Shown: one piece after another, positions 3,306-40,971 of the stretch
How the letters are laid out: each line of letters starts with the position of its first letter
How positions within the stretch are numbered: position 1 is the stretch's first letter
From: Nonomuraea montanisoli
GTDB lineage: Bacteria > Actinomycetota > Actinomycetes > Streptosporangiales > Streptosporangiaceae
Length of the DNA stretch: 64,000 bases
Assembly: GCF_013363975.1 (NCBI RefSeq)
Contig: NZ_JABWGN010000003.1
Coordinates: 186,001-250,000 of the forward strand
Reading direction: 5' to 3'
Notes under the pieces: model-generated
Told to the model about the DNA's origin: nothing
The model's database searches: none
What the model saw: only the letters and a program-made list of their open reading frames with translations
Position numbers and translations under genes: made by a program

Positions 3306-3692
3306 ATGACAGAGCGACGCGCGATCATGAGTGGGTCCGTCTTCGAGGAGCAGATCGGGTACGCCAGGGCCGTGGTGGACGGCGACCGGGTGCACGTGTC
3401 CGGCACCACCGGCTTCGACTACGCGACCATGACCATCTCCGACGACGTGGTGGAGCAGGCCCGGCAGTGCCTGCGCAACATCGCGGCGGCCCTGGCCGAG
3501 GCGGGATGCTCGTTCGCCGACGTGGTGCGGGTGCGCTACATGCTGCCGGACCGCGAGGACTTCGAGCCGTGCTGGCCGGTGCTGCGCGAGTGCTTCGGCG
3601 GGGTGCGCCCGGCCGCGACCATGCTCGTGTGCGGGTTGTCCGACCCGCGGATGAGGATCGAGATCGAGGTGGACGCCCGCCGGCCCGCCTAG
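3306..3692 (+). CDS. RidA/YjgF/UK114 family protein
   Basis: The 128-residue protein is the usual length for one chorismate-mutase-fold RidA domain. Members form trimers that hydrolyse reactive enamine/imine intermediates such as 2-aminoacrylate to 2-keto acids plus ammonia, or act on related imines. Visible hallmarks are the strand VDGDRVHVSGTTGFD, the helix DVVEQARQCLRNIAAALAEAG, and the PAATMLVCGLSDPRMRIEIEV end. The classical catalytic Arg of PARxxxxV proteins is not obvious: the segment reads RPAATMLVCGL, so this may be a non-canonical subgroup (Rid4-7) with a different substrate. An alternative start is the ATG at 3327. Divergent to LysR. Confidence 0.85.
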   Translation: MTERRAIMSGSVFEEQIGYARAVVDGDRVHVSGTTGFDYATMTISDDVVEQARQCLRNIAAALAEAGCSFADVVRVRYMLPDREDFEPCWPVLRECFGGVRPAATMLVCGLSDPRMRIEIEVDARRPA

Positions 3693-3711
3693 CCGGAACC
3701 CCGCCGCCGAG

Positions 3712-3968
3712 GGCGGCAACCCCATGGGGGACGGCCCGTACGGCGAGGGCAACTCGCGCAAGCACCTGCCGGCCACGCTGGACCACATGGTGCGCACCGG
3801 CCGCGCCCCGTACGCGGGCGTGTCCGACTTCTCCCCCGAGCGCACCGCCGGGACCGCCGCGCTGATGCGGTGTACTCGCCGCTGGCGCAGGGTCTGCCGA
3901 CCGACCGCTACCTCGACGGCATCCCGGAGGACTCCCGGGCGGCCGAGGAGGCGGGCGTCGAGGCGTAG
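3712..3968 (+). pseudogene. Remnant of an aldo/keto reductase (YghZ-like), with internal deletions
   Basis: Three separate pieces of one aldo/keto reductase survive. In frame from 3712, GPYGEGNSRKHLPATLD matches the substrate-loop region of YghZ-type enzymes and is fused straight to GRAPYAGVSDFSPERTAGTAALM, the later phosphate-binding segment; about 30 residues that should lie between are missing. At about 3867 the frame changes, and SPLAQGL..TDRYLDGIPEDSR, normally some 40 residues further on, follows and runs to the TAG at 3968. The N-terminal barrel with the catalytic Asp/Tyr/Lys/His and the C-terminal NADP site are gone. This is decayed DNA, not a short gene. A second AKR pseudogene lies at 50942-51653. 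Confidence 0.75.
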
Positions 3969-3972
3969 GGAC

Positions 3973-4005
3973 CGCGGGGAGGTGGAGGAGACCACCGTCC
4001 CCGCG
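3973..4005. terminator. GC-rich hairpin between the AKR remnant and the L,D-transpeptidase gene
   Basis: The arms CGCGGGGA/GGTGG and CCACC/GTCCCCGCG pair with a single bulged base. The hairpin lies 37 bases beyond the minus-strand transpeptidase stop codon and could end that transcript. There is no clear U-tract. Confidence 0.45.
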
Positions 4006-4041
4006 CCCCGAGCGGACAGGCGCGAGTCTCCGGCGCGCCCG

Positions 4042-4860
4042 TCAGGCGCGGTGGAAGGCGCCCCGGACGTGCACCGGCACGCCCGTGCCGAGCATCCCGG
4101 GCAGCACCTCGGCCACGTTCATCGGCATCCGCACGCACCCGTGCGAGGCCGGGTACAGCGGCACCGACAGCGCGCCGTGGAAGGCGATGCCGCCGTTGAA
4201 GAAGATCGGGTTGTACAGCCGGCCCAGGTACGAGGTGTGCCAGCCCGACTTGCGCCAGGTGGTCTTGTAGTCGCCCGTGGGCGTGCGGGCCGAGCCGCAG
4301 AAGCGCTGCTTCTTGCCCTGCCACACCGCGGTCTCGCAGTACGCCACGCCGCTGCCCGACGAGATGTGCGTGATCAGCTTGGGCTGCCCGTCCACGTACA
4401 GGACCATGATCTGCTTGGCGAGGTTCACCTCGGCGCGGGTCGGCCGTCCGGTGGGGACGAGGATCTTCGGCGCCCTGGGGCTCTCCAGAGCCCTCCAGGT
4501 CCGCGCGGCGACTGTGCTGGTCGGCGCGATGCCGTTGACCTTCTGGAAGGCCCACACGGCCGTCAGCGTCGTCCCGCCGTACCGGCCGTCCGCCCGGCCC
4601 GGCTGGTAGCCGAGCTCGGCCAGGCGGCGCTGGAGCCAGACGACGGCCTCGCCCTTGGCGCCCAGCCGCAGCGTCTTGCGCGGCGCCTCGGCCGTGACGG
4701 CCGCGGGAGTCGTCGTGGGGATGGTCGTCGCGGCCTGGAGCACCGGCGTCCGGGTGGGAGCGGCGGCCGCGGGCCCCGTCCCGAACCCGGTCAGGACGAC
4801 CACGCCGGCCGTGACGAGAGCCGCCATTCCCGGCAGACGTCGTGCCCTCACCCGAATCAC
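4042..4860 (-). CDS. Exported L,D-transpeptidase with peptidoglycan-binding domain
   Basis: The 272-residue protein has, in order, a signal peptide (basic MIRVRARRLPG, hydrophobic core, cleavage near GPAAAA-AP at about 35), a short linker, a PG_binding_1 domain at about 62-125 (LRLGAKGEAVVWLQRRLAELGY), and a YkuD catalytic domain to the end with the signature SHGCVRM; the nucleophile is Cys242. It should form 3-3 meso-DAP cross-links in peptidoglycan outside the membrane. It is monocistronic, and divergent from ybaK with an 86-base gap. It lacks the Ig-like domains of mycobacterial LdtMt2 and resembles the smaller streptomycete type. The family call is firm; its share of wall synthesis is not known. 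Confidence 0.93.
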   Translation of the reverse strand: MIRVRARRLPGMAALVTAGVVVLTGFGTGPAAAAPTRTPVLQAATTIPTTTPAAVTAEAPRKTLRLGAKGEAVVWLQRRLAELGYQPGRADGRYGGTTLTAVWAFQKVNGIAPTSTVAARTWRALESPRAPKILVPTGRPTRAEVNLAKQIMVLYVDGQPKLITHISSGSGVAYCETAVWQGKKQRFCGSARTPTGDYKTTWRKSGWHTSYLGRLYNPIFFNGGIAFHGALSVPLYPASHGCVRMPMNVAEVLPGMLGTGVPVHVRGAFHRA

Positions 4861-30123: not shown

Positions 30124-31242
30124 ATGTCTTCCGCTGTTAACCACTTCACCCATGGGCTCATCACGCCGGTCCTGGCCTACGTGATGTCGTGCATGGGCTC
30201 GATGCTCGGACTGCGGCTGACCGCCCAGGCCCGCGCCTCGCGCGGGGCCTCGCGGATGCGCTGGCTGCTCGGGGCGGCCGTCTCCATCGGAGGCACGGGC
30301 ATCTGGGTCATGCACTTCATCGCCATGATGGGCTTCCAGGTCGAGGGCACCCAGATCAGGTTCGACGTGCCCCTCACCGCCGCCTCGGCCGCGGTCGCCA
30401 TCGTGGTCGTCGGCACCGGCCTGTTCCTCGTCTCGTACGGCCGCGGCCGGGTGCTCGCGCTGCTCGGCGGCGGCCTGCTGACCGGTCTCGGCGTGGCGAG
30501 CATGCACTACCTCGGCATGTACGCCATGAACATGTCCGCGCACGTCTCCTACGACCGCACCACCGTGATCGCCTCCGTGGTCATCGCCGTGGTGGCCGCC
30601 ACCGCCGCCCTGTGGTTCACCGTGCGGGTCACCCGCCCGGTCTGGATCGCCGGCGCCGCGCTGATCATGGGTGTGGCCGTCTCCGGCATGCACTACACCG
30701 GCATGTACGCGCTGCAGGTCACGGTCGACCCCGAGCCGGGTGTCGTGGCCGGCGCCGACGCGCTGGACTTCCTGGTGCCCCTCATGACCGTGATCAGCCT
30801 GATCACGCTGACCATGCTGCTCATGGTCATCCTGTCGCCCTCCGAGCAGGAGATGAGCGAGGACGCCGAGCTCACGCGCAAGCTGGAGATGCAGCGGCGC
30901 ACCCGGCAGCAGCTCACCGAGACCTCGCTCGCCGAGGCCACGCCCCTCGCCACCGGCCGGCGCGCGCAGCGGGGGCCGGTGTTCGCCGCCCCCGTCCCCG
31001 ACCAGCCCTCCCCCTCCGACGCCTACGGCCCCGGCCCCTCCGCGCCCGGCGCCTTCACCCCGGGGACGCAGCGGACGCCGTACTCCGGCCAGCCGTATCC
31101 CGACGGCCAGGCGGCGCCCGGCCAGAACGCCCCCGTCATCCCCTTCCCCGGCCAGCCCGGCACGCAGCACCAGCAGGGCGGCCAGGGTCCGGCCCCTCAG
31201 CAGCAGCAATCCGGAAAGAGATCACGATCTCGCCGTAGGTAG
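30124..31242 (+). CDS. MHYT-domain integral membrane sensor protein
   Basis: The 372-residue protein has seven predicted membrane helices in its first 250 residues, carrying the repeated MHYT-type motifs: WVMHFIAMMGF near 60, SMHYLGMYAM near 130 and GMHYTGMYAL near 192. The pattern is proposed to bind copper and sense O2, CO or NO. The C-terminal 110 residues are a Pro/Gly/Gln-rich cytoplasmic tail ending in a basic SGKRSRSRRR; there is no GGDEF, EAL or kinase output domain, unlike most MHYT proteins. RBS AAGGAAC is near the ATG, and a TTGACA lies at 30040-30045. A paralogue follows 52 bases downstream. Confidence 0.9.
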   Translation: MSSAVNHFTHGLITPVLAYVMSCMGSMLGLRLTAQARASRGASRMRWLLGAAVSIGGTGIWVMHFIAMMGFQVEGTQIRFDVPLTAASAAVAIVVVGTGLFLVSYGRGRVLALLGGGLLTGLGVASMHYLGMYAMNMSAHVSYDRTTVIASVVIAVVAATAALWFTVRVTRPVWIAGAALIMGVAVSGMHYTGMYALQVTVDPEPGVVAGADALDFLVPLMTVISLITLTMLLMVILSPSEQEMSEDAELTRKLEMQRRTRQQLTETSLAEATPLATGRRAQRGPVFAAPVPDQPSPSDAYGPGPSAPGAFTPGTQRTPYSGQPYPDGQAAPGQNAPVIPFPGQPGTQHQQGGQGPAPQQQQSGKRSRSRRR

Positions 31243-31294
31243 TTGATTTCGGTCGGTCCGAGCCCCGATACTCCAGGAATTGCCGAGGGGGCTC

Positions 31295-32110
31295 ATGTCG
31301 CCGATCGACCAGTTCTCGTACGGGTTGCTCACGCCCGTCCTGGCCTACGCCATGTCCAGCGTCGGCTCCCTGCTCGGCCTGCTGCTCACCGCCCGGGCCC
31401 GCCTGATCGGCGGCAAGGAGGGCCGGTACTGGCTGGTGGGGGCCGCGCTGGCCATCGGCGGCACCGGCATCTGGACCATGCACTTCATCGCGATGATGGG
31501 CTTCGCCGTGGACGGCACGGACATCCACTACGACCTGCCGCTGACCGCCGCCTCCGCCCTGCTCGCCGTCGTGGTGGTGGGCATGGGGCTGTTCCTCGTC
31601 TTCCACGGCGGCGAACGCGTCTCGTCCCTCGTCGGCGGCGGCGTGCTCACCGGGCTCGGCGTGGCCGGCATGCACTACCTGGGCATGGCGGGGATGCGCA
31701 TGGCCGGTCACGTCTCCTACGACCCGGTGGTCGTGGGGCTGTCGGTGGTGATCGCGGTCGCGGCGGCGACGGCCGCGCTGTGGTTCGCGCTGCGCGTCCG
31801 GGGCGCCCTGCGCACGACCGGCGCGGCCCTGGTCATGGGCGTGGCCGTGTCCGGGATGCACTACACCGGCATGTACGCCATGGCCGTGCAAGTGCACTCC
31901 GACGAGACGCCCGTCGGGGGCGCCGCGGCGGGCGACTTCCTGCTGCCGCTCGTCGTGGGCCTGAGCGTGGTGACCGTGGGACTGCTGCTGGCCGTGCTGC
32001 TGTCGCCGTCGGAGCGGGAGGTGCTCGCCGAGATGAAGTTCCGGGAGCGCATGCTGAGAAGTGAAGGGGGCGCGCCGGAACAGGATTCGTTCGGCACGCC
32101 CCGTGGATGA
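31295..32110 (+). CDS. MHYT-domain integral membrane protein, paralogue
   Basis: The 271-residue protein repeats the seven-helix MHYT domain of the previous gene with the same motif spacing (WTMHFIAMMGF, GMHYLGMAGM, GMHYTGMYAM), but stops after a short cytoplasmic helix (SPSEREVLAEMKFRERML) and lacks the Pro-rich tail. GAGGGGG precedes the ATG at 31295, which I prefer over the TTG at 31280. The two genes are a local duplication and are likely cotranscribed; a heteromeric sensor is possible. Output is unknown. Confidence 0.9.
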   Translation: MSPIDQFSYGLLTPVLAYAMSSVGSLLGLLLTARARLIGGKEGRYWLVGAALAIGGTGIWTMHFIAMMGFAVDGTDIHYDLPLTAASALLAVVVVGMGLFLVFHGGERVSSLVGGGVLTGLGVAGMHYLGMAGMRMAGHVSYDPVVVGLSVVIAVAAATAALWFALRVRGALRTTGAALVMGVAVSGMHYTGMYAMAVQVHSDETPVGGAAAGDFLLPLVVGLSVVTVGLLLAVLLSPSEREVLAEMKFRERMLRSEGGAPEQDSFGTPRG

Positions 32111-33622: not shown

Positions 33623-34921
33623 CTAGAGCGGTGGCAGGCGTTCGCTGTAGAGCCAGGACATGAAGAAGGCGTCCAGCGGCTCGGCCGTGTAGCGGGCGGC
33701 GAGCTCGGTGAAGCGACCGGTCGTGACGACGCCGTGGCGATAGACCTCGGTCCATTCGCGCAACACCGACCGGAACGCGGGATCGCCGAGCACGCGGCGC
33801 AGGGCGTGCAGGGTGAGCGCGCCCCGCTTGTAGACGCGGTCGTCGAACAGCCGCTTCACCCCGGGGTCCGCCAGCGTGAAATCGAGCGGTCCGGCCGCGA
33901 GCCTGGCATGCCAGCGCCTGGCGTGGGCTTCGGCGCTCTCCCCGCCGGACTCCTCCGACCAGAGCCATTCCGCGTAGGCCGCGAAGCCCTCGTGCAGCCA
34001 GATGTCACGCCAGTGGGCCAGCGTGAGGCTGTTGCCGAACCACTGGTGCGCCAGCTCGTGCGCGACCAGCCGCTCCTCCCCCAGGAGGTTGGCGCCGAAG
34101 ATCGACATGCCCTGCGCCTCGACGGGGATCTCCAGGTCGTCCTCGGTCACGACCACGACGTACTCCTCGAACGGGTAGCGCCCGAACCAGTCGGTGAACA
34201 CCCGCATCATGAGATCCTGGCGGCCCAGGGCGAGCCGGGCGCGGGTCAGCGACTCGGCAGGCGCCGCCACCCGCTGCGGCACCTCTCCCGGCAGGTCGGC
34301 GACCTGGTAGCGGCCGATCTGCGCGCTCGCGAGGTACGAGGCCATCGGCGCGCGCTCACGGAACTCCCACGTCGTGCGGGAGCCCGCCCGGCGGGTGGAC
34401 ACCAGCCTCCCGTTGCACACGACCGTGTACGGCGACGGCGTCGTCACCGCGATCCGGTAGGTCGCCTTGGCGGACGGCCGGTCGTTGCACGGGAACCACG
34501 ACGGGGCGCCGATCGGCTGACCGGCCACGATCGCGCCGTCCTCCAGCTGGTCCCAGCCGAGCCCGCCCCAAGGGCTGGGCACGGGCCGCGGATTGCCCGA
34601 GTAGCGGACCTCCAGCGTGAACTCCCGGCCCTCCGCCAGCCAGCGGCCCGGGATGACGCGCAGCTTCTGACCGCGGAGCGTGTGCCTGGCCCGTTCCCCG
34701 TTCACGAGCACCTGCCCGACGTTGAACGGCCCGAAGTCCAGCAGCACCTGGTTCAGCGGCTCGGCCGCCACCGCGACGAGCCGGGCGGTGCCGGCCAGCC
34801 GGTTGGGGCCCGGCCGGTAGTCCAGTTCGAGGTCGTAGTGCTTGACGTCGTATCCGTCATCGCCGTGGTCGGGGAAGTAGCGGGTGCCCGGTGCCACTGT
34901 CCTCCCATCGACGCCGCTCAT
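33623..34921 (-). CDS. M1 family zinc metallopeptidase, coupled to the Pls-like synthetase
   Basis: The 432-residue protein has the zinc site HELAH at 288-292 and the third ligand Glu311 in LHEGFAAY, the exact M1 spacing, after an N-terminal beta-sandwich that begins YDVKHYDLELDYRPGPNRL. The exopeptidase GAMEN motif is not intact: its place reads EAQGMSIFG. It is shorter than aminopeptidase N because the C-terminal helical domain is missing. It has no signal peptide, so it acts inside the cell or leaves by another route. The ATG overlaps the stop of the Pls-like gene (ATGA). Aminopeptidase-type enzymes are known to degrade epsilon-poly-L-lysine in producers, so a trimming or self-protection role is plausible. 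Confidence 0.88.
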   Translation of the reverse strand: MSGVDGRTVAPGTRYFPDHGDDGYDVKHYDLELDYRPGPNRLAGTARLVAVAAEPLNQVLLDFGPFNVGQVLVNGERARHTLRGQKLRVIPGRWLAEGREFTLEVRYSGNPRPVPSPWGGLGWDQLEDGAIVAGQPIGAPSWFPCNDRPSAKATYRIAVTTPSPYTVVCNGRLVSTRRAGSRTTWEFRERAPMASYLASAQIGRYQVADLPGEVPQRVAAPAESLTRARLALGRQDLMMRVFTDWFGRYPFEEYVVVVTEDDLEIPVEAQGMSIFGANLLGEERLVAHELAHQWFGNSLTLAHWRDIWLHEGFAAYAEWLWSEESGGESAEAHARRWHARLAAGPLDFTLADPGVKRLFDDRVYKRGALTLHALRRVLGDPAFRSVLREWTEVYRHGVVTTGRFTELAARYTAEPLDAFFMSWLYSERLPPL

Positions 34922-37900
34922 GCGGCCTTGTGCCAGACGGCCACCGGGTTGCCGTACCACCGGGTCCGCGCGGGCAGCGACTCACCCCGCATCACCAGGG
35001 ACGCGGGGCCGATCGTGGTGTTGCTCCCGACCGTGGCCGCGGGCAGCACCACCCCGTGCGGGCCGAGCGTGGATCCCTCAGCCAGCTCGACTGTATCGAT
35101 GCTCATGACGCGATCATGGAACAGGTGGGTCTGAAGCACGCAGCCCCGGTTGACCGAGGTACCGTCACCCAGGCTGACCAGGTCGATCTCCGGCAGCCAG
35201 TACGTCTCGCACCACACGCCGCGGCCGACCTCGGCGCCGAGCGCGCGCAGCCAGGCGTTGAGCGCCGCCGTACCGAGCCACGGGGTGGCGAACCAGGGCG
35301 CGGCGAGCACCTCGATGAAGTTGTCCGCCAGCTCGTTGCGCCACACGAACGAGCTCCACAGCGGCCGGTCGCCCGCCCGGATCCTGCCCATGAGCGCCCA
35401 TTTGGCGGCCACCGCCACCGCGGCCGCGACGAACCCGGCACCGGCCAGCACGACGCCGCCGAGCAGCGCGGCGACGCCGAATCCCGCCACGCCCGCGATC
35501 CACATGAGCGTCATGACCACGAGCGTGGCCAGCCCGGCCGTCGCAATCGCGGGGACCACCCGGCACGCCTCGACCAGGGCGCGAGCCACCTTGAGGCGGC
35601 GCGGCGGGTCGTAGGTGCGGCTGGTGTCGCCGCTCTGGGCGGTCCTGCGCAGCTTCACCGGCGGCATCCCCAGGTAGGACGATCCGGCCTTGGCCTTCTT
35701 CGGGGCCGCCGACAGCACGCCGACCAGCCCGTCCTTGGGCACCTTGCGGCCGGGCGCGGTCATGCCCGAGTTGCCGACGAACGCCCGCTTGCCGATCCGC
35801 ACATGGTCGATGCGCATCCAGCCGCCCGCCAGCTCGTACGGCGCGACCTTGGTGTCGTCGGCCAGGAACGCGCCGTCGCCCACGACGGTCATCGACGGCA
35901 GCGCGAGCACCGTGGACAGCTCGACGTCGCGCCCCACCGTCATGCCCAGCGCCCGCAGCCACAGCGGCGTGATCGCGCTGGCGTACAGCGGGAACAGCCA
36001 CACCCGGGCCATCGCCATCAGCCGCTCGGTCGCCCACGCCTGCCATGCCGTACGGCTGTGCACGGGGTAGGTGCCGGAGCGGAGTCCGATCGCCAGCGAC
36101 CGCACGGACACCAGCAGCAGCAACGCCATCGACACCATCGACGCCACGGTGGCCGGCGGCACGCCGGCCGGCCCCATCGAGACCACGATGGCCAGTCCGG
36201 GGAGCGCCGCGATCGCCGGGATCATGCTCAGCACCAGCGCCGACAGGCCGTAGAACACGCTCCAGCGGCGGTGGCGGGCCGGCCGCTCGGCCGAGCGTGC
36301 CGTCGCCTTGCCCCTGCGCACGGCCGGCGCGCCCGCCCAGCGCTGCCCGCCGGGGACGGGACCGTTCACCGAGGAGCCGGGAGCGATCTGGGCGTTCTTC
36401 CCGATGCGGGCGCCGGGCAGCAGGGTCGAGCGGGCGCCCACGGTGGCCCCGGCCCCCACCCTGATCTCGCCGATCCTGAGCAGATCGCCGTCCAGCCAGT
36501 AGCCCGACAGGTCGACCTCCGGCTCGACGGCCGCGGCCTTGCCCAGCCTGAGCATGCCGGTGATCGGCGGCAGCGTGTGCAGGTCGGCGTCCTGCCCGAC
36601 CTGCGCGCCGAGCGCCCTGGCGTAGTAGGTGATCCACGGCGCGGCGGCCAGGCCGCCGACGCCGAGCCCCGCCGCCAGCTGCTCGGCGAACCACAGGCGC
36701 AGATGCGTGGCGCCCCCGCGCGGATATGTGCCGGGCCGCAGGCCGCGCAGCAGCAGCCGGGCCGCGCCGGCCGCCAGTGCGAGCCGCCCGAACGGCATCA
36801 GGAACAGCAGCACGCCCGCGACGACCCACCACCACGAGACGGCGGTGACCCCGGCGAGGTTGCCCAGCGCGGCCGCCCCGGTGACCCAGGGCATGGCGCG
36901 CACCGTCAGCAGCGGCACCATCAGCGCCGTCTGGAGCAGCGCGGCCCGGCGCGGCATCGGGGTCACCTTGCGGTCGGTCGCCGTGGGCGCCTCGAGCGCT
37001 TCCAGCCGTGTCGTCAGGCCCCTGAGCGTCGGGTGATCGTACAGATCGGTGACCGCGACGGCCGGATACCGCGTGCGCAGCAGCGACACCAGCCTGGCCG
37101 CCGCGAGACTGGTGCCGCCGGAGGTGAAGAAGTCCGCCTCCGGCCCGCTGACCTGGTCGCCGAGCACCTCCTGCCACTGCTCGGCGAGCCAGCGTTGCGT
37201 GCCGTCGAGCTCTGTGCCGTCGGGGCGCGTCGGGGTGTCGCCGGCGATCGGCCAGGGCAGCGCGTCCCTGTCGATCTTCCCCGACGTGCGGGTGGGCAGG
37301 TGGTCCACGATCGCCAGGCGCGGCACGAGCGCGGCCGGAAGCACGGCGCCGAGCTGCTCCCGCGCCCGCGCGAGATCGAACTCGTCCGTCACCACGAGAT
37401 AGCCCACCAGAAGCTGGTGGCCCGACCTGGTCGTCCTGACCGCGGCCGCCCCGCCTCCGACTCCGGGCAGAGCCTGCAGCGCCGCGTCGACCTCGCCCAG
37501 CTCGATGCGGCGCCCGCCGAGCTTGATCTGCTCGTCGGCCCGTCCCACGAAGACGAGGCCCTCGGGGTCGGCCACGACCAGGTCACCGGTGCGGTAGGCG
37601 CGCCCCCAACCGAGCGATGCGAGCGGCGCGTACTTCTCCCTGTCCTTGTCGGCATCGAGGTATCGGGCCAGTCCGACGCCCCCGATGACCAGCTCGCCGG
37701 TCTCCCCCATCGCCACGGGCCGGCCATCGGCGCCCACGACGGCGAGGTCCCAGCCGGTCAACGGCAGACCGATCCTGACGGGTTCGTCCTTGCGGAGCGG
37801 CGCGGCGCAGGCCACCACGGTGGCCTCGGTCGGCCCGTAGGTGTTCCACACCTCGCGGCCCTCGACACTGAGGCGCTCGGCCAGCTCGGGCGGGCAGGCC

Positions 37901-38697
37901 TCGCCGCCGAAGATCAGCAGCCGGACGTCCGCGAGCGTCTCGACCGGCCACAGAGCCGCCAGCGTCGGTACGGTCGACACCACCGTGATCTCGCGCTCGA
38001 CCAGCCAGGGCCCCAGGTCCATCCCGGTACGCACGAGCGCTCGCGGAGCGGGCACGAGGCAGGCGCCATGGCGCCAGGCCAGCCACATCTCCTCGCACGA
38101 GGCGTCGAAGGCGACCGACAATCCGGCCAGGACGCGGTCACCCGGCCCGATCGGATCGCTCCGGAGGAAGAGCCCCGCCTCGGCGTCCACGAACGCGGCG
38201 GCGCTGCGATGGCTGACCGCGACGCCCTTGGGCTTGCCCGTCGACCCGGACGTGAAGATGATCCAGGCGTCGTCGTCCGGCAGCGGCGGCCGGGCTCGGG
38301 AGTCGGTCGGCCGGCGCACGGTCAGCGAGCGGTGCGCGCCGACGACCGCGCAGACGCCGGCCTCGTCGAACACGAGCTCGGCCCGCTCGTCCGGGTCGTC
38401 CGCGTCCACGGGGACATAGGCGGCCCCGGCCGCCAGGATCCCTAAGACGGCGACATAAAGATCCACCGTGCCGGACGGCACGCGGACGCCGACCCGCTCC
38501 CCCGGCCCGATCCCCGCCTCACCGAGCGTGTCGGCGAGGTACGCCACCTCTTTGCTCAGCTGCGCGTAGTCGAGAGCGGTCACACCGTCATCGAGCGCGG
38601 GCGCGTCAGGGTGCGTCCCGGCCGTCTGTTTCAGGATGTCCACCAGTGTTCTGGCGGGCGGTGTCGCGGCTTCGGACAGGAAGACGGCGTTCGCCAC
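34918..38697 (-). CDS. Pls/PosA-type membrane NRPS (poly-amino-acid synthetase-like)
   Basis: The 1259-residue protein has an adenylation domain at about 10-505 (core IIFTSGSTGKPKGVAVSH, NTYGPTEAT, TSGKIDRDALP), a carrier domain at about 520-595 (4'-phosphopantetheine Ser in DFFTSGGTSLAA), then six membrane helices alternating with three left-handed beta-helix, acyltransferase-like domains. This is the layout of epsilon-poly-L-lysine synthetase Pls, with no ordinary condensation or thioesterase domain. Aligning the binding pocket by eye to GrsA gives DAESIGTVVK, close to lysine codes such as BacB module 1. The N-terminus offers TTG (38700) or GTG (38697); AGGTGA favours the GTG. Lysine is inferred; ornithine or a diamino acid is possible. 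Confidence 0.9.
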   Translation of the reverse strand: MANAVFLSEAATPPARTLVDILKQTAGTHPDAPALDDGVTALDYAQLSKEVAYLADTLGEAGIGPGERVGVRVPSGTVDLYVAVLGILAAGAAYVPVDADDPDERAELVFDEAGVCAVVGAHRSLTVRRPTDSRARPPLPDDDAWIIFTSGSTGKPKGVAVSHRSAAAFVDAEAGLFLRSDPIGPGDRVLAGLSVAFDASCEEMWLAWRHGACLVPAPRALVRTGMDLGPWLVEREITVVSTVPTLAALWPVETLADVRLLIFGGEACPPELAERLSVEGREVWNTYGPTEATVVACAAPLRKDEPVRIGLPLTGWDLAVVGADGRPVAMGETGELVIGGVGLARYLDADKDREKYAPLASLGWGRAYRTGDLVVADPEGLVFVGRADEQIKLGGRRIELGEVDAALQALPGVGGGAAAVRTTRSGHQLLVGYLVVTDEFDLARAREQLGAVLPAALVPRLAIVDHLPTRTSGKIDRDALPWPIAGDTPTRPDGTELDGTQRWLAEQWQEVLGDQVSGPEADFFTSGGTSLAAARLVSLLRTRYPAVAVTDLYDHPTLRGLTTRLEALEAPTATDRKVTPMPRRAALLQTALMVPLLTVRAMPWVTGAAALGNLAGVTAVSWWWVVAGVLLFLMPFGRLALAAGAARLLLRGLRPGTYPRGGATHLRLWFAEQLAAGLGVGGLAAAPWITYYARALGAQVGQDADLHTLPPITGMLRLGKAAAVEPEVDLSGYWLDGDLLRIGEIRVGAGATVGARSTLLPGARIGKNAQIAPGSSVNGPVPGGQRWAGAPAVRRGKATARSAERPARHRRWSVFYGLSALVLSMIPAIAALPGLAIVVSMGPAGVPPATVASMVSMALLLLVSVRSLAIGLRSGTYPVHSRTAWQAWATERLMAMARVWLFPLYASAITPLWLRALGMTVGRDVELSTVLALPSMTVVGDGAFLADDTKVAPYELAGGWMRIDHVRIGKRAFVGNSGMTAPGRKVPKDGLVGVLSAAPKKAKAGSSYLGMPPVKLRRTAQSGDTSRTYDPPRRLKVARALVEACRVVPAIATAGLATLVVMTLMWIAGVAGFGVAALLGGVVLAGAGFVAAAVAVAAKWALMGRIRAGDRPLWSSFVWRNELADNFIEVLAAPWFATPWLGTAALNAWLRALGAEVGRGVWCETYWLPEIDLVSLGDGTSVNRGCVLQTHLFHDRVMSIDTVELAEGSTLGPHGVVLPAATVGSNTTIGPASLVMRGESLPARTRWYGNPVAVWHKAA

Positions 38698-38862
38698 CAA
38701 GGCTCACCTCACACGTCGACGATGCGGGCCCTGGTCGACGACTCGTACGCGTCGCAGCCCCTCGCGGCGCTCCCCACGCCGCCGAGCCTTCAACGATCGC
38801 AAAGAACGCGGATATTTCCCAATCCGCGGCCACGTCGGCAAGGTCACACTCGCCGCCAAAAC

Positions 38863-38908
38863 GTCAACCAGCGGTTGACGCCATAAACATCGTCAACCTA
38901 TGGTTGAC
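38863..38908 (+). promoter_or_regulatory. Twin palindromic operators over the Clp_N gene promoter
   Basis: GTCAACC-N3-GGTTGAC occurs twice, perfectly, at 38863-38879 and 38892-38908, centres 29 bases apart. The first contains TTGACG (38875-38880), a -35 element; the second contains TATGGT (38899-38904), a -10 element; the spacer is 18. The transcript would start at the ATG at 38911. A protein bound to both sites would block the promoter completely. Confidence 0.7.
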
Positions 38909-38910
38909 GC

Positions 38911-39744: not shown

Positions 39745-40971
39745 CTACGCGGGCGCCAGGGGGGTCGAGGCCGGGGCCGGGAGGAGGCGGGGGCTCGGGG
39801 CCGGGCTCCGGGTGATCCGGCGCAGCAGGGCGTGCAGGCCGAGGGAGGTGCGGGGCGGCCCCGGGGTCTCCCAGCGGGGGCACGGGCCCTCGCAGCGGAT
39901 CAGCCGCCCGTACAGGCCGATGCGGGTCCGGCCGGGGCCGGGGTGGAGGAAGGCCAGGTCCGCGCCGTCCTGTCCCGCCCGCGTCAGGGCGGCGCGCATC
40001 TCCGGCGACCAGTACGCGTCCCACCCGGGCGACACCACCGCCAGCGCGCCGCGCAACGCGCCGGGGGTGAGGTCCACGCTGGTCAGGTACGCCAGAGGCG
40101 CGCCGCTCCGCTCGGCCATGGCGACGGCGCGCCGCTCGTAGGCGGTGAAGAAGTCCGCGCCCGTCCCGTCGTAGGGCCGGTCGAACGTCACCTTCGGCGC
40201 CTGCGTCCCGCCCTCCGCGAGGTCCCGTCCTCCCCACCGGTTGTGGGCCTGCCAGGTGGTGACCGCGTTGACGAGCACCACGCGGCCACGCGCCGACGAG
40301 GAGCGCACGGTGATCGGCACGTACCGGCCGCCGCCCGTGGACGCATCCAGCCGGACCAGGTAGGCGCCCTCCCGCCAGCCGGTGGTGTCCACGGTCAGCG
40401 ACGGCTTCCAGTGGGCGGCCGTCACCATGCCCCCGACCGTGAGCGGCTCGGCCTGCCGCGCCCCCGGGACGTTCCCCGACCGCCACACCAGCTCGGGCCG
40501 GACGCCCATCCGGAAGGCCCGCGCGGTGAAGGCGGGCGCGGTCGTGGACACCAGCAGCCGGAACCGCTCGCCCGGCAGCACGCTGACCCGGTCGGCGTAC
40601 CCTTCGATCTCGTGCTCGCCGCCCTGGGCGCCGACGCGCCACGCGGCCCGCCGGACCTGCCGGCGCCCCGGAACCGGGCCGGCGGCCCCGGCGCCCGTCC
40701 CCGGGTCCGCGCCCTTGTCCGCCATCGCCCCCTCGCCTGGTCCAGGGCCGGATGCCGCCGCGCCCGGAGGCGCGGTCCCGGCGGCGGTCGGGGGCGGGGC
40801 GGCGGCGGGCGTGGGACGCGAGCCGGGCGGCACGGCAGCGGCGCCGCAGCCGGCGACCGGCGCCAAGGCCAGCGCCAGGGCGAGCCCGGCCGCCGGGAGC
40901 CTGAGTGCCCGCGAAGGGCGCGGCGGGACGCGGCGGGACGAGGGCGCCGACGCGCCCGGGGAGGTACGCAC
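39745..40971 (-). CDS. Putative lipoprotein of the N,N-dimethylformamidase large-subunit type
   Basis: The 408-residue protein has an N-terminal signal with lipobox APVAGC (Cys42), a Pro/Ala/Gly-rich spacer to about 105, then two domains: a beta-sandwich (EGYADRVSVLPGERFRLLVSTTA) and an alpha/beta domain with VVLVNAVTTWQAHNRWGG, VTFDRPYDGTG, FFTAYERRAVAMAERSG and LAVVSPGWDAYWSPEMRAAL. This last block resembles the C-terminal domain of the N,N-dimethylformamidase beta subunit, found in many actinobacterial exported proteins of unknown role. The final 70 residues are Pro/Arg-rich and match that domain poorly, so the end may be eroded. Amidase activity should not be assumed. Confidence 0.65.
   Translation of the reverse strand: MRTSPGASAPSSRRVPPRPSRALRLPAAGLALALALAPVAGCGAAAVPPGSRPTPAAAPPPTAAGTAPPGAAASGPGPGEGAMADKGADPGTGAGAAGPVPGRRQVRRAAWRVGAQGGEHEIEGYADRVSVLPGERFRLLVSTTAPAFTARAFRMGVRPELVWRSGNVPGARQAEPLTVGGMVTAAHWKPSLTVDTTGWREGAYLVRLDASTGGGRYVPITVRSSSARGRVVLVNAVTTWQAHNRWGGRDLAEGGTQAPKVTFDRPYDGTGADFFTAYERRAVAMAERSGAPLAYLTSVDLTPGALRGALAVVSPGWDAYWSPEMRAALTRAGQDGADLAFLHPGPGRTRIGLYGRLIRCEGPCPRWETPGPPRTSLGLHALLRRITRSPAPSPRLLPAPASTPLAPA

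Follow-up and report, generated by a model that had tools for sequence, protein, structure and literature searches.

Epsilon-polylysine is a commercial antimicrobial, and the closest described system for making and degrading it is the pls-pldII arrangement of the industrial producer Streptomyces albulus. According to PMC9223678, translation of S. albulus PldII is coupled to that of pls. The enzyme is reported there to be located outside the membrane and to be the major degrading enzyme, and its repression to lower tolerance to the polymer. The peak chain length given there is 44 in the repressed strain S1 and near 32 in the other strains and the wild type, and earlier work cited in the same paper suggests no role for the degrading enzymes in setting chain length (PMC9223678).

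A lysine-type pocket and an operon with a peptidase gene have also been described for Corynebacterium variabile. Its Pls was shown by the authors to synthesize epsilon-polylysine in S. coelicolor, and C. variabile itself gave no detectable polymer in culture (PMC8117764). Because of this last result, the presence of pls genes does not show production. PosA, the delta-poly-L-ornithine synthetase of Acinetobacter baumannii, is of the same family as the Pls described here, and its published model has the same C-terminal fold, with three left-handed beta-helices on a helical bundle. However, PosA has the pocket DMEHNGTVSK and is encoded in a single-gene operon (PMC10522769).

Here, a locus of Nonomuraea montanisoli was analyzed within a stretch of 64,000 nucleotides (the window). 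It is very probably a member of the known pls-pldII unit, which would make and hydrolyze epsilon-poly-L-lysine. The locus resembles S. albulus pls-pldII in Pls architecture, in pocket code, in having a peptidase gene directly downstream and in the stop-start overlap. It differs in that S. albulus-like loci encode a peptidase with a twin-arginine-like signal, whereas the window peptidase has none that was recognized. Its likeness to the C. variabile operon, taken from the published description, lies in the lysine-type pocket and the peptidase gene. The original prediction was of a two-gene system that makes and trims or detoxifies a cationic isopeptide polymer. By analogy, this matches the S. 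albulus arrangement as set out in two papers (PMC9223678, PMC8117764); the make-and-degrade idea is right but already known, since that arrangement has been published. As an operon, it is one more ordinary example of a described kind, and its modest new angle is an apparently cytoplasmic peptidase subtype.

The synthetase and peptidase genes

The features of the two genes are as follows, with Pls residues counted from TTG 38700.

33623..34921, minus strand: pldII-like gene, two-domain M1 zinc peptidase; 432 aa from ATG 34921; no recognizable signal peptide
33989..34060, minus strand: zinc-binding motif HELAH-18-E (His288, Glu289, His292, Glu311)
34918..38697, minus strand: pls-like gene (Pls/PosA-family poly-amino-acid synthetase); 1259 aa from GTG 38697, 1260 from TTG 38700
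37246..38661, minus strand: adenylation (A) domain, approximately residues 14-485; Pfam AMP-binding; pocket DAESIGTVVK
37006..37194, minus strand: carrier (T) domain, residues 503-565; Pfam PP-binding
37108-37110, minus strand: phosphopantetheine Ser531 of the carrier domain
36751..36951, minus strand: helix pair 1, probably membrane, residues 584-650; AlphaFold2 helices 7-39, 46-57 and 59-73; hydropathy peaks 617-644
36307..36609, minus strand: C1 beta-helix unit, residues ~698-798; Pfam Hexapep 746-780; from the model
36091..36270, minus strand: helix pair 2, probably membrane, residues 811-870; AlphaFold2 helices 234-293; hydropathy peaks 822-873
35650..35946, minus strand: C2 beta-helix unit, residues ~919-1017; from the model
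35389..35601, minus strand: helix pair 3, probably membrane, residues 1034-1104; AlphaFold2 helices 457-527; hydropathy peak 1079-1097
34936..35238, minus strand: C3 beta-helix unit, residues ~1155-1255; from the model; Gln1190, His1192 and Asp1196 invariant in 65/65 rows

The synthetase open frame covers 34918-38700 on the minus strand. GAGGTGAG stands just upstream of both candidate start codons, GTG 38697 and TTG 38700, of which GTG 38697 is the more likely. Pfam domains AMP-binding, PP-binding and Hexapep were found in the protein, and residues 589-1253 matched the Pls/PosA model TIGR02353 with 717 bits against a curated cut-off of 423. Homology to Pls spans the whole protein (57% identity over 1242 columns to the Pls of L031, a locus of Streptomyces sp. 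MspMP-M5), in agreement with the Pls-like NRPS originally proposed. Neither of two losses that were checked for was seen: Ser531 is in place in the carrier domain that accompanies the A domain, and the tandem C-like units were found both by the TIGR02353 match and in an AlphaFold2 model. This gene is the single TIGR02353 match in the host genome (9.76 Mb, 82 contigs), and among Pls from named genomes the one of Nonomuraea endophytica is nearest, with 82% identity over 1247 columns.

The closest solved relative of the synthetase is 7WEW, an epsilon-poly-L-lysine synthetase A domain (phmmer E 1.3e-192), to which the window A domain is 67% identical. The pocket was read by alignment as DAESIGTVVK at residues 199, 200, 203, 242, 263, 265, 287, 295, 296 and 475, the ten pocket positions as placed by motif anchors. 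7WEW has the same ten letters at the aligned positions. The lysine-like code that had been read by eye is thereby borne out, and a check for a non-diamino-acid pocket returned the polylysine pocket. Because the pocket is identical to that of the solved enzyme, the A domain is predicted to activate L-lysine, which would then be loaded onto the carrier Ser.

The C-terminal half of Pls was modeled with AlphaFold2 from 65 sequences chosen from a larger set (mean pLDDT 92, pTM 0.91). The model has three repeats, each consisting of long helices followed by a left-handed beta-helix-like ladder of short strands. Its top Foldseek matches were hexapeptide acyltransferases (best E 9e-5), with TM-scores that are low because each match spans a small part of the model. 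Of the A-T-six-helix-three-C-like layout put forward originally, the A domain, the T domain and the three C-like units stood. The count of six helices comes from the model and the published S. albulus layout; a simple hydropathy scan of the synthetase gave merged peaks, which did not resolve six separate helices by themselves. By analogy, the helix pairs are probably membrane helices. The 65 rows in which the three residues of the C3 unit are invariant reach down to homologues at 23-26% identity, and no His other than His1192 is among the polar residues that 97% or more of them share. This conservation suggests that the third beta-helix unit is catalytic, with Gln1190, His1192 and Asp1196 as candidate catalytic residues. 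The membrane-embedded three-unit domain would join lysines via their epsilon-amino groups to give epsilon-poly-L-lysine, as expected from the family.

The M1 open frame runs from 33623 to 34960 on the minus strand. Its start is most likely ATG 34921, which overlaps the synthetase stop codon (34918-34920) as ATGA at 34918-34921, in line with the overlap of the synthetase stop with the start of an M1-type peptidase that the original prediction had described. The alternative GTG 34960 was judged less likely and rejected as the main start; this codon stands within the synthetase gene, 39 bases before ATG 34921, and the ATG sits exactly on the stop. The M1 gene is thus directly downstream of pls, and the ATGA overlap suggests that its translation may be coupled to that of pls. 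All 53 rows of the M1 alignment made for structure work, which were taken from a larger set, share the HEXXH-18-E motif, the GXMEN-position Glu and a Tyr. The nearest solved relative is the M1 of Deinococcus radiodurans (6a8z, 6koy), a two-domain zinc peptidase like that of the window, which is not known to be tied to a polymer synthetase. Because its PldII counterpart degrades the polymer, the M1 peptidase encoded with pls is predicted to hydrolyze epsilon-polylysine.

A larger conserved operon was looked for by tblastn of five window neighbors (PFK, Clp_N, the MHYT protein, the lactonase-like protein and the DMFA2_C protein) in 113 loci, 83 of them with long flanks (more than 2 kb on both sides in 78/83), and was rejected; the sole match was PFK in L001, which is the window's own locus. 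Other features of the neighborhood were observed. Two terminator-like hairpins, by pattern match only, lie at 38807-38909 on the minus strand between the Clp_N protein gene and pls. The protein encoded at 39748-40971 ends in an N,N-dimethylformamidase beta-subunit-like domain, and its N-terminus looks by eye like that of a lipoprotein. Two tandem MHYT-type membrane signaling proteins are encoded at 30124-32110, the first recognized by Pfam and the second by sequence likeness.

Linkage across genomes and synthetase subfamilies

Among 150 genomes of the same family, 40 had a TIGR02353 match above the cut-off. The 29 same-family loci analyzed besides the window are the best-scoring of the TIGR02353 matches, and they contain little flanking sequence. 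An M1 gene lies beside pls in 24 of the 29, with Pls 69-79% identical to the window's. In the five without M1, Pls is 27-38% identical to the window's. A different code is seen in four of these; the exception is L018, with the lysine code and just 434 bases after the pls stop.

From named genomes, 80 loci were taken, the best-ranked among 577 or more relatives, picked by the peptide patterns DDAWIIF and ASCEEMW from the lysine-type A-domain alignment; four ended before 1300 bases downstream. In the 76 with at least 1300 bases downstream, M1 is beside pls in 67 and absent in nine. DAESIGTVVK was read in 107 of 113 aligned rows (the window and 112 loci), with DAESIGTVIK in one, DFECLSVV(T/S)K in four and one row without an A domain in frame; the uniform code in the named-genome set is partly due to selection, because that set was drawn with two lysine-type peptide patterns.

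In a FastTree tree of Pls (L001, the window again, and L065, L084 and L100 (partial) left out; root for drawing only), the lysine-code rows fall into a 21-row S. albulus-type set (support 97) and a 92-row window-type set (support 98) that contains the window. The 21-row set has ten rows with a signal-bearing M1, nine without M1 and two undecided. In the 92-row set, 91 rows have an adjacent M1 of the signal-less kind, counting L019 with its M1 in two pieces, and one, L117, has no M1. Neither set includes the divergent lysine-code L018 or the four other-code rows, with which it lies.

All nine M1-less named-genome loci are within the S. albulus-type set. They represent eight genomes, L040 and L060 coming from one and the same. 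Six of the eight, from Kitasatospora and Streptomyces, also contain a second pls that is of the window type and has an M1 beside it. No pls was found beside the best M1 of S. rimosus (L036) or of Kocuria (L097). In the S. diastatochromogenes genome (L032), a piece of a window-type pls adjoins an M1, and a signal-bearing M1 is found on another short contig. Both subfamily types were found in seven of the 12 genomes searched, regions having been fetched from nine of the 12. No twin-arginine-like signal was seen by eye in the M1 next to any of the seven second pls copies.

Peptidase N-termini were assessed by pattern search and by eye. A twin-arginine motif with a hydrophobic stretch was recognized in 10 of the 95 pls-linked M1s (L031, L033, L034, L035, L037, L038, L039, L048, L085 and L111) and in none of the other 85, the window's included; L026 was rejected by eye (hydropathy 0.56) and L048 added by eye, in the pattern search nine rows had fewer than 14 residues to score and 11 were without the end motif, and in the reading by eye five rows had no start shown. 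In an M1 tree built by a quick method (SH-aLRT only; L019 left out; root for drawing only), 86 signal-less rows, comprising 84 pls-linked M1s with the window among them and two plasmid copies without pls, lie on one side of a branch with SH-aLRT 98. A single change of state suffices for the presence or absence of the signal. The 96 rows made up of 94 pls-linked M1s, including the window's, and the two plasmid copies are separated from four unlinked M1s with SH-aLRT 100. The window peptidase is thus on the same branch as the other pls-linked M1s, with L031 standing in for S. albulus PldII.

As judged from these sequences, lysine-code Pls form two subfamilies, and the predicted export signal of the peptidase tracks the synthetase subfamily. 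No description of two peptidase types, or of a split by signal, was found among the matches listed from searches of open-licence papers. No twin-arginine-like or hydrophobic N-terminus was recognized by pattern or by eye in the window M1, and because of this lack of a recognizable export signal it most likely acts in the cytoplasm and is not exported. There, it would clear polymer that arises within the cell or gets back into it. Export by a route without a classical signal, which would make the cytoplasmic reading wrong and leave the pls-pldII assignment standing, seems rather unlikely to us. It would agree with the location of S. albulus PldII outside the membrane, as reported in PMC9223678, where protection from external polymer makes sense, but the window M1 is one of the 85 in 95 without such an N-terminus.

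Several loci had unusual arrangements. In L117, on a Mycobacterium intracellulare plasmid, no M1 was found in 11.8 kb by annotation or tblastn; its Pls has lysine-type pocket motifs and adjoins an NRPS gene and a PLP-dependent cysteine-synthase-like gene. In L019 (~3561-4818), from the same-genus genome G141, the M1 gene beside an intact-looking pls is split in two frames, as if broken or misassembled. The plasmid loci L121 (Tsukamurella) and L122 (Rhodococcus koreensis) have window-type M1 genes without pls annotated beside them, and these orphans may confer tolerance to polylysine that other organisms produce. On a plasmid of Streptomyces sp. NBC_00557 (L118), an M1 gene of the unlinked type overlaps a phosphopantetheinyl transferase gene beside NRPS genes.

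Substrates of the synthetase and the peptidase

In the comparisons above, L031 stands in for S. albulus, its A domain being 93% identical to 7WEW; its M1 is 45% identical to the window's. The product of the window Pls is extrapolated, because the full-length identity of this Pls to the S. albulus-type Pls of L031 and L111, the two compared in this way, is only 56-57% and because C. variabile Pls lay outside the tree set.

The M1 enzyme might instead be a general aminopeptidase that lies beside pls by chance, since M1 enzymes are common, the nearest solved relative is that of D. radiodurans, and the L121 and L122 copies of the window type have no adjoining pls. However, the linkage of M1 to pls holds across many actinobacterial families and includes a stop-start overlap, and it is not part of a common neighborhood, the flanking PFK and Clp_N genes having no match in other loci. 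These M1s are also separated by a branch from the four that are unlinked, one of which is L115, a lipoprotein-like paralog in the window's own genome. A chance neighbor is therefore very improbable, although the peptidase substrate could be other than epsilon-polylysine.

It is equally improbable that the same synthetase polymerizes ornithine, diaminobutyrate, diaminopropionate or beta-lysine: several such polymers are made by the family (PMC10522769) and pocket codes may be degenerate, but the ten letters of the window are those of 7WEW, the size-gating residue is Ala, which has been reported for lysine enzymes, the codes of PosA (DMEHNGTVSK) and of the beta-lysine enzyme (DGESISVVNK) differ, and the four divergent same-family homologues with DFECLSVV(T/S)K have no M1 in the fetched flank (~1.4 kb). 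A pls-pldII unit directed at epsilon-poly-L-lysine remains the preferred reading.

Handling of the polymer

A lysine-type synthetase occurs with an adjacent peptidase across many actinobacterial families, and the peptidase signal tracks the subfamily. Together, these two results make it a testable question where the polymer is handled and what polylysine does for bacteria that are not known as producers. We give about even chances to a second polylysine subfamily, present in many actinobacterial families, in which the coupled peptidase would be cytoplasmic and the polymer would be policed inside the membrane, unlike in S. albulus. If this is true, policing inside the membrane would mean intracellular clearance, chain-length setting or lysine recovery, and a genome with both subfamilies would have two polylysine pools, each policed on its own.
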